Assembly: GCA_002786025.1 (NCBI GenBank) | Contig: NHNW01000031.1 | Location: forward strand, 124,001-188,000 | DNA from: Zasmidium citrigriseum | Taxonomy: Eukaryota > Ascomycota > Dothideomycetes > Mycosphaerellales > Mycosphaerellaceae | DNA length: 64,000 nucleotides | Direction: 5' to 3' | Part shown: positions 25,127 to 33,400 of the stretch, piece after piece | Layout of the letters: each line of letters begins with the position of its first letter | How positions within the stretch are numbered: the first letter of the stretch is position 1 | The notes under the pieces: generated by a model | Seen by the model: the letters and a program-made list of their open reading frames with translations, nothing else | Told to the model about the DNA's origin: nothing | Databases searched by the model: none | Position numbers and translations under genes: made by a program

Positions 25127-28100
25127 TCAGTCCTCGTCATCGTTTCCTTCGTCCAACGTCAACCAAGCGCTCCTGCATTTCACAGCAGCAGACCTGACGC
25201 TTCTCTTCGCATCGTCCAAACAGCCTAACAGCTTCTTAACCACAGGCCTTCGATACGGCACCACGGACTCCCTCTTCAGCTGTCGTGGAACGAGCGTCAA
25301 GCATTGCAGTGCTTTCGCCCTCACCTTGGCAACGTTGCCAGGACCGGACGTCGAATTGAGCAGTCTCGTGATGAGAGACGCGGAATGCTCTGCCGCAACA
25401 TTCGGATCGTGCATAAGCAGCGATTCGAAGACGGTCAGAGTGGAGTACTTGACTGGCTGGTCGGTAGAATCATTCAAATCAAGGCTCTGAAGAAGAGATG
25501 GCATCAAAGATGCCAACGAGGATTCGATGATGGAGTAGGGGAGCCATCTCAGGATGCCAGACATCGCGATGAGATAGTTGGGTTTCGTGCTCTGTTCGGC
25601 AGTCCTCACACTATCAATCATCGGCGGAATCGTCTGGCTGAAGGTCTTCTGCTTGTAGAGGTTCGAGACCAGACAGTGATTCTCCTTGGTGAGAATATCG
25701 TCAGGGGCAAGCAGCTCTGCGAATCGTCGAGCGAAGGTCTTGTCTGCTTTGGGAAGTGTTTGCAACAGCAGCGAGATGTACTTTGCTGTCAACGATCCAC
25801 TCCGTCCTTGGACGATCAGTGCCTTAACGACAGCAAAGGCAACGACTACCTTCGCAGGCATAATCTCGTCGCTCAGTAATGCTTCCACCTCAATTCCCGC
25901 ATCTTGCAAAGTCTGCTGCATTACGTCGGGCTTGAGGAACTTGTTGATCACCATCGACAAGTGTCTTGCTACGATTGCGGTACTGGCAGAATCCTGAGTA
26001 CTGCTGAGAAGATAGTGAGAGAGCGCTTTGAGCAAAGTGACGATGTTGGCTGGATCCACGATCTCAGGTCGTAAGGAGGCGTAGTAGTAAGTCGAGAACG
26101 GTGCGAAGCGGCGAACTCGAGAGTCGATGCTGGCGTTGTCCGTAGACGAGAGCATCCATTCCATGTTCTTGTTGTACACCGAACTCTGGAAGTGCGGTGT
26201 CTGCTGTCTAAGGATGATGTTGGTCAAGCGGCCGATGATTTCTGCGACTGCGTCGTCCTGCTCAGACGGCAACGCATCTCGTAGTCTCTCAATCAAGGGC
26301 TCGGCGTAGTCAGAGAAGTAGGAGCTTCGTATGACCCCTTCTTCACGCATCGGTGATCCGTGTGTGCAGATATAGAGTTGCGCTAACAGGAGTGCTCTTT
26401 GATAGTCGCCGGAGGCATTCTGAAACCTCGCAGCGTTATGCTTGTTCTTGATTCGCACGGCGACCGTGTCGAAGATCTGCTGTTCTGTGCTCAATTGCAC
26501 AAAAGCTTCCAGTACCGGCTTCCAAGTCGTCTCATCTTGAGGAGCGTCGGGCAGCTCTACCATGAAGGCCGGTATGGCCTGCTGACGTATTGCCTCTGGA
26601 GCTGCATGAGCAATGTTGACCAAGCTTTTGACAGCCTCTGCGCTGATGTCCCCATGGCCGTCAATACGTTCATGGAGAATTATCTCGTCGATAGCATCTA
26701 TAGCTCGAGCAACTTGGTCTTCTGACAGAGCCCCTCGCACGGCTGACAACTTTGCGAGGCCGTTCAAAGCCGCAAGTCGGAACGAGACTTCTGCTTTGGG
26801 TGCGCTCGTCACTGCGCGGATCAAAGCATTGAGAGCATCGTCTGCGAATGCTTGCAAAGCTTCTGCATCTGCTGCCGGATGCGAGATCTGTAGCTCCCGA
26901 TACGCATCAACAATTTCATTGAACACCTCGAGAAGTCCTCTCCGCTTCGTAATTGACTCTGAAGACTGGAATAGAGTGAACAGGACAGGGAACACTCCCT
27001 TTGCGATCTTGTCTCCAACGGCAGGGCTGGCCTTCGTAATGGCGTGAAGGATGCGACCAGCCCCTTGAGATTGTTTCGTCGGTGCGTCTTCGAGGTGCTC
27101 GTTACATTCCTTCACAATGGGACGAATGTACGAGTTCAGAGGTCCTTCAGCATCCGCAAACTTTTCAGCAATGAGCCCCAGCGTTTTCACTGCCTCCTGC
27201 GCAAGGTCTTCTTCCTGCACGTTGATGACCTCAAACTTCAAAGCATCCCACAAGGTGACTGAGTAGAGGTTGATGGTATTGGCGATGTAGCGGCTCACAC
27301 ATGATTGCAGAGTCTGTAGTACATCTCGTTTCGTGTTGATTGAAGTGGAGTCCAGCTTGTCCAGCAAAGCCGGGAATGCATAAGGAGCGAAGTCGGAGTT
27401 CGCCGCTATGCAGTCTCGTAACCGGTCTTTCAGATCTTGAGCTGTGATACCGTATGGATCATCCGGCGGAGGCTTGAAAGTGATTGGGAAGTAATCAAAG
27501 ACGGCCTCAAACATGTCTTGCGCAAAAGCATGGATATCCCACTCGGCCATAGGAACCTGTAGCAAGGAGAAGACGATCATCAAGTTCCGAGGATCTTTCT
27601 CGCCCTCGAAGTATGATATGAAGCCTTCCATGAATTGCGGATCAGTCTCGTGAATCTGTTTCATCGGCGTCCGGTATTTGGCCAGCAAACGGTCGATAAG
27701 CTGAATCACTGGATACCTTTCAGTTTGAAGCTTAAACTGCCGAAGAGGATGTGTGTGGTCCAAGAAGGTCCGCATCACTCTCTGCGCCAACTCGGGATCC
27801 CATTTGCCACGCTCCTCGAGCGCGAGCAATGCTCGCGCCGAAGCGCCCACGCCTTCGACATCGCCCTCGAGTCGGCCAAGGATAAAATCGCAGAGTAACC
27901 TTCGCTCCTGACCCGACAAGACTTTCGGTGGCAAGTTTTCTAGGACATCGGCGAGGTATGCGACTGATTTTGCGCGAATGGCGCCATCGTTTTTGTCGTT
28001 GATGTACTCCTCGAGACTGGTGATGAGGTCGATAAGTTTCAGCTGCTTTTCCTGGAGTTTGGTGGCGCTTTGAGTGGCGATTCGTTGCGCTTCTGGCTTG

Positions 28101-28141
28101 TTCTTGTCTACCTCGAGCAGGTAGAGCTGGATGTCTGACAT
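25127..28141 (-). CDS. MMS19: MMS19/Met18 nucleotide excision repair and Fe-S targeting factor
   Basis: Scaffold of the cytosolic iron-sulfur targeting complex, which delivers Fe-S clusters to DNA repair and replication enzymes such as XPD and DNA polymerases. It has an uninterrupted 1004-aa frame and no introns, in contrast to most neighbours. The N-terminal region contains the conserved block LLCDFILGRLEGDVEGVGASARALLALEERGKW... with HPLRQFKLQTERYPVIQLIDRLL. The middle has PVAEWDIHAF-like (here PMAEWDIHAF) and DYFPITFKPPPDDPYGIT, diagnostic of Mms19. The rest is helical HEAT-repeat sequence to the C terminus, which ends in an acidic DEGNDDED. It is about 300 bp from the stop of SLA1, in tandem. 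Confidence 0.95.
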   Translation of the reverse strand: MSDIQLYLLEVDKNKPEAQRIATQSATKLQEKQLKLIDLITSLEEYINDKNDGAIRAKSVAYLADVLENLPPKVLSGQERRLLCDFILGRLEGDVEGVGASARALLALEERGKWDPELAQRVMRTFLDHTHPLRQFKLQTERYPVIQLIDRLLAKYRTPMKQIHETDPQFMEGFISYFEGEKDPRNLMIVFSLLQVPMAEWDIHAFAQDMFEAVFDYFPITFKPPPDDPYGITAQDLKDRLRDCIAANSDFAPYAFPALLDKLDSTSINTKRDVLQTLQSCVSRYIANTINLYSVTLWDALKFEVINVQEEDLAQEAVKTLGLIAEKFADAEGPLNSYIRPIVKECNEHLEDAPTKQSQGAGRILHAITKASPAVGDKIAKGVFPVLFTLFQSSESITKRRGLLEVFNEIVDAYRELQISHPAADAEALQAFADDALNALIRAVTSAPKAEVSFRLAALNGLAKLSAVRGALSEDQVARAIDAIDEIILHERIDGHGDISAEAVKSLVNIAHAAPEAIRQQAIPAFMVELPDAPQDETTWKPVLEAFVQLSTEQQIFDTVAVRIKNKHNAARFQNASGDYQRALLLAQLYICTHGSPMREEGVIRSSYFSDYAEPLIERLRDALPSEQDDAVAEIIGRLTNIILRQQTPHFQSSVYNKNMEWMLSSTDNASIDSRVRRFAPFSTYYYASLRPEIVDPANIVTLLKALSHYLLSSTQDSASTAIVARHLSMVINKFLKPDVMQQTLQDAGIEVEALLSDEIMPAKVVVAFAVVKALIVQGRSGSLTAKYISLLLQTLPKADKTFARRFAELLAPDDILTKENHCLVSNLYKQKTFSQTIPPMIDSVRTAEQSTKPNYLIAMSGILRWLPYSIIESSLASLMPSLLQSLDLNDSTDQPVKYSTLTVFESLLMHDPNVAAEHSASLITRLLNSTSGPGNVAKVRAKALQCLTLVPRQLKRESVVPYRRPVVKKLLGCLDDAKRSVRSAAVKCRSAWLTLDEGNDDED

Positions 28142-28439
28142 TGCCTCATGTCTCGTGGATGATGGGTTGGTGCGAGCACATGCAGTTCATGGGATTTTTG
28201 ATCGCTCAAATCAGCCTCACGTCATTCGCTGATCGGCTCGGAAGATCTGCCGCTAGCGGGTAAAATAGCTGGCTGCAGAAGTGGTGGTACAGCTTTGACA
28301 TTCACTTCACATGCTTCCATTCTTCTACTAACGGGGAATCGGGGTATGGTGATATTAGCGAGCGAGTTACACTATATACATGTGGTGCACATATGCACAT
28401 CCCATTGACGTCCTACATAGCGAGTTTTGGCGGAAATGC

Positions 28440-33207: not shown

Positions 33208-33228
33208 CGAGCTGCATCAAGCAGCTCG
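33208..33228. repeat. Perfect 8-bp inverted repeat just upstream of tRNA
   Basis: CGAGCTGC, a five-base ATCAA loop, then GCAGCTCG. It ends 10 bases before the mature 5' end of the tRNA-Leu. It could form a hairpin in the pre-tRNA leader or act as a DNA site, or it may be chance. Confidence 0.7.
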
Positions 33229-33245
33229 AAAACTTCAAGCTACGG

Positions 33246-33256
33246 TGGCCGAGTGG
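33246..33256 (+). promoter_or_regulatory. RNA polymerase III A box
   Basis: TGGCCGAGTGG matches the A-box consensus TRGYNNARNNG at every position. It is internal to the tRNA D arm. Confidence 0.85.
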
Positions 33257-33276
33257 TCTAAGGCGGTAGATTTAAG

Positions 33277-33296
33277 TCAGTCACACGACTGCAAAC
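33277..33296 (+). other. Canonical tRNA intron (position 37/38)
   Basis: A 20-nt segment between G37 and C38 of the anticodon loop, the standard site for eukaryotic tRNA endonuclease. It contains a perfect CAGTC/GACTG hairpin with an ACAC loop. Confidence 0.85.
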
Positions 33297-33320
33297 CTCT
33301 ACTGGGGAGACCCGCGCGCG

Positions 33321-33371
33321 GTAAGCTTCCCTCTCTTGCCTTTTCTTTGATCATTTTCTAATATGTTGCAG
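33321..33371 (+). other. Spliceosomal-like 51-nt intron inside the tRNA T arm
   Basis: Begins GTAAGC, has a long pyrimidine-rich middle, a CTAAT branch-like site at 33358-33362 (branch A ten bases from the end) and ends TTGCAG. It interrupts the tRNA between G53 and T54. Without removal no T stem can form; with removal GCGCG pairs with CGCGT. Its length and motifs match the protein-gene introns in this window (45-67 nt, GT-AG, CTGAC/CTAAC). Its final G doubles as the first base of the B box, so the Pol III promoter survives the insertion. Nuclear tRNA introns are otherwise known at 37/38. Splicing itself is inference. Confidence 0.75.
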
Positions 33372-33379
33372 TTCGAACC
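33371..33379 (+). promoter_or_regulatory. RNA polymerase III B box
   Basis: GTTCGAACC fits the B-box core GTTCRANNC. The first G is the last base of the T-arm insert. Confidence 0.8.
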
Positions 33380-33394
33380 GCGTCCGTAGCAACA

Positions 33395-33400
33395 TTTTTT
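33395..33400 (+). terminator. Pol III terminator (T6)
   Basis: A run of six T starts four bases after the discriminator base of the tRNA. Confidence 0.85.

Follow-up and report, generated by a model that had tools for sequence, protein, structure and literature searches.

A tRNA-Leu(UAA) gene of Zasmidium citrigriseum with a predicted spliceosomal intron in its T arm, one of many tRNA genes apparently split in this way

The gene at positions 33239-33391 (+ strand) of the window, the 64,000-nt stretch of Zasmidium citrigriseum DNA that was analysed, is very probably a functional nuclear tRNA-Leu(UAA) gene which carries both an intron of the kind removed by the tRNA endonuclease and a U2-type spliceosomal intron, and this fungus appears to have many genes of the kind. 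Nuclear tRNA introns have been described as one class, removed by endonuclease and ligase, and spliceosomal introns normally reside in Pol II transcripts. The introns reported here would form a distinct class: we consider it likely that much of the nuclear tRNA set is encoded by Pol III genes with one to four spliceosomal introns, those for initiator Met, Trp and Leu(UAA) among them, and that translation in this fungus depends directly on the spliceosome for the supply of mature tRNAs. No precedent for spliceosomal introns in nuclear tRNA genes was found in the literature searched, which mostly leaves out subscription papers, so a report could exist.

Read directly, the 153 nt form a class II tRNA with a TAA anticodon, from G1 at 33239 to A73 at 33391, with all elements on the + strand. 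Exon 1 (33239..33276) comprises the 5' strand of the acceptor stem, the D arm and the anticodon stem and loop up to G37, and holds the A box (TGGCCGAGTGG, 33246-33256) and the anticodon (33273-33275). A 20-nt intron of the ordinary nuclear type follows at 37/38 (33277..33296, placed by the fold and by ARAGORN), after which exon 2 (33297..33320) runs from position 38 through the 3' strand of the anticodon stem and the variable arm to the 5' strand of the T stem, ending at G53. Here the gene is interrupted a second time, by a 51-nt intron of mRNA type between G53 and T54 (33321..33371), which was recognised by its splice signals and by the cloverleaf. It begins with the donor GTAAGC (33321-33326), contains the branch motif CTAAT (33358-33362) with the branch A at 33361 (10 nt from the 3' boundary), and closes with the acceptor TTGCAG (33366-33371). 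Exon 3 (33372..33391) supplies the T loop, the 3' strands of the T and acceptor stems and A73, and a T6 run resembling a Pol III terminator lies at 33395..33400. In the unspliced DNA the B box reads AGTTCGAACCG (33370-33380), the final two intron bases standing in place of G53 and, it seems, C52. The T-arm insert differs from the ordinary intron of the same gene in lying at 53/54 rather than 37/38 and in having splice-site and branch signals.

All seven pairs of the acceptor stem GCTACGG/CCGTAGC are present, and the T stem GCGCG/CGCGT forms solely once 33321-33371 is excised. At minimum energy the unspliced 153 nt fold without a T arm, whereas the 82-nt product forms a cloverleaf. Neither ARAGORN nor Rfam (at gathering scores and at E<=10) called a tRNA in the unspliced DNA; with the 51 bases removed, ARAGORN reports tRNA-Leu(taa) and its 20-nt intron, and an excision displaced by 7 nt gave no ARAGORN call. 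When the boundaries were varied by ±10 nt and splice signals were ignored, four excisions tied as the best cloverleaf, one of them being the GT-AG excision. The preliminary description had given the same coordinates for the tRNA and the same length for its 37/38 intron, had placed the second insert exactly between G53 and T54 with the anatomy of an mRNA intron, and had stated that the T stem and an 82-nt Leu tRNA arise only on splicing; direct reading agrees with the first two points, folding and ARAGORN with the third, and the comparison it proposed, of the gene called with and without 33321-33371, separates the two forms as above. It had also likened the insert to the protein-gene introns of the window, which is supported by four of these, of 47, 53, 53 and 67 nt, in which CTAAC, CTGAC or CTAAT precedes the end by 10-15 nt; they were found heuristically in a search that gave 12 candidates, some of them spurious. 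Among them are the introns of an STT3-like gene (47 nt, its CTAAC at a distance of 10 nt) and of a dipeptidyl-peptidase III-like gene (67 nt, its CTGAC at 15 nt), both genes being named from their translations.

The genome searches, which covered 44.4 Mb in 148 contigs and give lower bounds, led to a catalogue of 30 nuclear tRNA genes. Eighteen of these are split by one to four mRNA-type inserts (35 introns, one tentative) and 12, for other anticodons or isotypes, are uninterrupted; the catalogue was ascertained and is not a random sample, and so provides no estimate of the split fraction in the genome. A genome-wide Rfam tRNA search listed 43 matches at E<=10, of which 17 lie on two contigs of 15-16 kb (C41 and C51) that were taken as mitochondrial by assumption. 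The other 26 comprise 12 intact genes, 10 split genes (Lys(CTT) tentatively), an uninterrupted Ile(TAT) match (L021) that the solver described below missed and that stands outside the 30, one apparently degraded copy and two matches without a resolved cloverleaf. Further split genes came from gapped patterns and BLAST. Three gapped-pattern searches returned 8, 29 and 13 hits, and their reversed-pattern controls 3, 33 and 21; 5 of the 8 and 21 of the 29 were not assigned to tRNAs, and 2 of the 13 hits of the third search were examined.

An intron-aware cloverleaf solver, permitting introns of 40-90 nt with a branch motif within about the last 34 nt, gave 27 tRNAs, 15 of them with introns, when run over the non-mitochondrial loci at a threshold of 26. 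Applied to 848 overlapping 520-nt segments of the window (64 kb, both strands), it scored at least 27 in two, both of which contain tRNA-Leu(UAA). Initiator Met copy 1 was recovered with relaxed settings. Manual assignment was needed for initiator copy 2 and Ala(CGC), since an intron of each lacks the usual branch motif and another of the initiator copy is GC-AG. For two of the 12 intact genes (L007 and L015) the ARAGORN names differ from those of the solver through another intron placement.

A single mRNA-type intron was found in Leu(UAA) (53/54), Leu(CAG) (variable arm), Val(CAC) (variable loop), Val(AAC) (D loop), Met(CAT) (9/10) and Lys(CTT) (69/70), the last being tentative since ARAGORN accepts its unspliced form too. 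Two are present in Asp(GTC) (D loop and 53/54), initiator Met copy 1 (6/7 and D loop), initiator Met copy 2 (D loop, GC-AG, and 30/31), Thr(CGT) and Arg(TCT) (both 4/5 and 62/63), Arg(CCG) (11/12 and 62/63), Ala(TGC) (4/5 and 54/55) and Trp(CCA) (4/5 and 53/54). Arg(CCT) (4/5, 53/54 and 68/69), Arg(TCG) (4/5, 24/25 and 69/70) and Pro(AGG) (4/5, D loop and 61/62) each have three, and Ala(CGC) has four (4/5, 26/27, variable loop and 63/64). The 4/5 junction recurs among unrelated isotypes; its frequency stems partly from one search pattern that required 4/5, yet four of the 10 split genes found first by Rfam also have it. At two Arg loci (L029 and L084) both strands of the acceptor stem are cut, 4/5 and 68/69 of Arg(CCT) lying opposite each other on its two strands and 4/5 and 69/70 of Arg(TCG) being one step apart. 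A hand reading of Met(CAT) with a 20-base variable loop was replaced by ARAGORN's 43-base intron at 37/38.

The ends of the introns are GT-AG in 34 of 35 and GC-AG in one, a count that is partly circular because the patterns and the solver sought GT-AG in part of the catalogue. The exception, the D-loop intron of initiator copy 2 (L104, C72:184720-185150), reads GCGAGT..CTAAC..CCAG and has the only non-GT donor; the donor is GTAAGT in 15 of the 35. All but one of the introns measure 50-59 nt (the other is 69 nt), and the branch motif is CTAAC in 24, CTGAC in four, CTAAT in four and another YTRAY in two, with none in one. In 32 of the 34 that have a branch motif, 10-13 nt separate the branch A from the intron end. 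This length and this distance were not imposed, since the solver permitted 40-90 nt and about the last 34 nt. With boundaries varied by ±10 nt and splice signals ignored, the best excisions included the GT-AG one in 30 of 35 introns and the GC-AG one in one; GT-AG was the sole optimum in 10, and another excision was better by 0.4-1.0 in four. The test has little power in loops, where six introns had 13-28 tied excisions each. ARAGORN found a complete cloverleaf in all 18 genes after excision, each with the expected anticodon, compared with four of the 18 unspliced (two of these with another anticodon) and five of the 18 with excisions displaced by 7 nt. Several split genes also scored below the Rfam tRNA cut-off, and tRNA counts in such genomes may consequently be too low.

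The best reading of the split genes is that they are functional and would be matured by the spliceosome. Among the 15 that the solver scored, 10 have no stem mismatch and five have one. Searching with the spliced initiator tRNA gave two loci, each of which is split, the junctions differing between them; the repeated gain of introns in tRNA genes, which we likewise hold to be likely, follows from these two copies being cut at different places. Once spliced, they differ at four positions, which make up two compensatory acceptor pairs, and this points to selection having acted on the joined product, in this single pair of paralogues. For Trp the corresponding search gave a single locus, which is split twice, and the 5' part of Leu(UAA), 82 bases long, had no match but itself, which bears on the question raised earlier of whether this is the sole UAA isoacceptor. 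No intact copy of initiator Met, Trp or Leu(UAA) was thus found in the genome copy searches, in which a similar intact copy would be expected to match along the full length of the query. The same search with Asp came back empty and missed even its own locus, so that split copies with short exons can escape it.

The split genes are probably transcribed by Pol III. A run of T5 or longer lies downstream of all 30 catalogued genes, within 43 nt for the 18 split and within 55 nt for the 12 intact, against a background of 378 out of 18,266 stretches of 60 nt sampled from the window (2.07%). Such runs were absent from the inside of all 30 genes; for the introns alone this absence is not significant (P 0.17), and selection against T5 runs within introns was accordingly not upheld. 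The best match in unspliced DNA was as good as that in spliced DNA for the A box in 14 and for the B box in 15 of the 18 split genes; in the remaining genes a single letter of the A box is lost (four genes) or between one and three letters of the B box (three genes), Ala(TGC) losing three. The idea that intron placement spares the promoter found no support, as the placement spares the A and B boxes no more than random placement does (P about 0.52), and box retention therefore speaks neither for nor against Pol III.

The U6 snRNA of fission yeast and other fungi is known to carry introns of mRNA type, as is U3 snoRNA, and U6 is a Pol III RNA. Three U6 loci were found (L100, C117:112082; L101, C72:164981; L102, C59:490950), each with a 56-58-nt GT-AG intron at the same site, ATGGCC/CCTGCAC (TTGGCC/CCTGCAC in L102); all three matches fall below the Rfam cut-off because the intron splits them. 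Two of the three introns contain the B-box-like GTTCGAATC, and the U6 introns of fission yeast contain a B-box match as well, according to the title of a work cited in PMC10484740. The U6 and U3 introns thus resemble those of the split tRNA genes in being spliceosomal and in residing in short structured non-coding RNAs; the hosts here differ in being tRNAs of many isotypes, with up to four introns per gene, some of them in the acceptor stem or the T arm. For 5S rRNA there were 25 full-length matches of 119-121 nt without an insert, besides three weaker ones, which shows that Pol III genes are not all affected. SRP RNA gave no match, which carries no weight either way.

It is rather unlikely that the inserts are spliceosomal introns in genes transcribed by Pol II, with splicing coupled to transcription and the spliced RNA trimmed to a tRNA. 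In its favour, such introns are normally at home in Pol II transcripts, letters are lost from the unspliced A box (four genes) and B box (three), and the placement of the introns does not favour the boxes. However, T5+ runs follow every split gene within 43 nt, as they also follow the intact ones, most A and B boxes are unchanged, and U6 has introns of this kind in the same genome. That the tRNA splicing endonuclease cuts out the inserts at new sites, in the way known for archaea and Cyanidioschyzon, is highly improbable. Donor, branch and acceptor signals are not read by the tRNA endonuclease, and it is these signals, with the length of an mRNA intron, that the inserts have in common, which is why a new endonuclease site, one of the explanations first offered, is disfavoured. 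A full 4-bp central helix is possible at four of the 35 junctions, though the mean for permuted sites is 3.3 (P 0.42), and the strict helix-bulge-helix-bulge-helix arrangement occurs at none of the 35, in a test that is weak and non-discriminating since ordinary 37/38 introns fail it too. In favour of the endonuclease, the tRNA genes of archaea, Cyanidioschyzon merolae and the Guillardia nucleomorph are known to have ectopic introns at 3/4, in the D arm, at 53/54, in the T arm and at other sites (PMC4090602, PMC3978253). These can occur several to a gene, and wherever the two papers give a mechanism they are tied to a bulge-helix-bulge and the tRNA endonuclease, the introns of the Guillardia nucleomorph (3-24 nt) being unexplained. 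They share with the inserts described here the positions outside 37/38 and the multiple introns per gene; the latter differ in their 50-59-nt mRNA-intron anatomy.

A further possibility, which we regard as very unlikely, is that the split genes are dead copies, having received introns or intron-like insertions, and that intact genes elsewhere supply the tRNAs. The genome searches are lower bounds on an assembly in 148 contigs, the 12 intact genes show that whole genes for other anticodons or isotypes exist, and a third of the scored split genes (5/15) have a stem mismatch. Against this stand the mismatch-free stems of the other 10, the compensatory changes across introns of the two initiator copies, the intact initiator, Trp and Leu(UAA) copies that the copy searches did not find, and the exact boundary and full splice signals, seen 35 times and unexpected of a dead insert. 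For Leu(UAA) itself a dead copy, as had been suggested, is improbable because no other copy of its 5' part was found and 17 further tRNA genes (one tentative) are likewise split. Chance or an assembly artefact can be given almost no credence: a flexible solver is able to join unrelated pieces, and part of the set came from gapped patterns whose reversed controls also gave hits, but the solver had no other hits across the 848 segments, the 18 loci on many contigs are concordant in length and branch distance, and ARAGORN agrees. Spliceosomal processing, which had been listed among several possibilities, is thus the best fit.

From the sequence we infer the splicing, the polymerase and the order of maturation of the split tRNAs. 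Pol III would transcribe the tRNA-Leu(UAA) gene from its internal boxes and stop at the T6 run, and the spliceosome, recognising donor, branch and acceptor, would excise 33321-33371. The T arm would form only after this excision, and end processing and the removal of the 37/38 intron would come later. If this is true, the spliceosome routinely handles short structured Pol III-like transcripts, apart from any coupling to Pol II, and the supply of tRNA can depend on mRNA splicing. The many short and sharply bounded intron gains, some differing between paralogues, would also offer tests of intron insertion. An origin from introner-like elements, which are a source of new spliceosomal introns in the Dothideomycetes, the class of this fungus, had been proposed and finds no support among the 35 introns: such elements form families of similar sequences, and no family was found here, similarity within the set extending no further than 11-14 nt. 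Zasmidium cellare is in the species list of a paper on these elements (PMC4457414), and no word beginning with tRNA occurs in the main text, as available, of that paper or of PMC9860276.

Some further loci and neighbouring features deserve mention. Two weak tRNA matches, L069 (C72:1046975) and L070 (C101:211803), and a pattern hit, L080, were dropped after the relaxed solver run gave no cloverleaf; in the first two the T arm and the 3' strand of the acceptor look intact, and their 5' or anticodon parts, which defied resolution, may contain introns lacking the usual signals. L019 (C49:1534-1996), a tRNA-like copy that is rich in AT and contains a long insert, scores 49 bits in Rfam and looks like a dead tRNA gene mutated in a RIP-like manner. 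The tRNAs of contigs C41 and C51 are clustered and some pairs have identical Rfam scores; the two contigs are perhaps two versions of the mitochondrial genome. In the window, a perfect hairpin, GAGCTGC ATCAA GCAGCTC with one additional outer C-G pair (33208-33228), ends about 10 nt upstream of tRNA-Leu(UAA); stems of at least 5 are commoner in the leaders (7 of 30) and trailers (9 of 30) of the catalogued genes than in 30-nt stretches of the window (9.2%). An MMS19-like protein encoded at 25130-28186 (- strand) is 86% identical to a protein of Zasmidium cellare and 89% identical to another protein.
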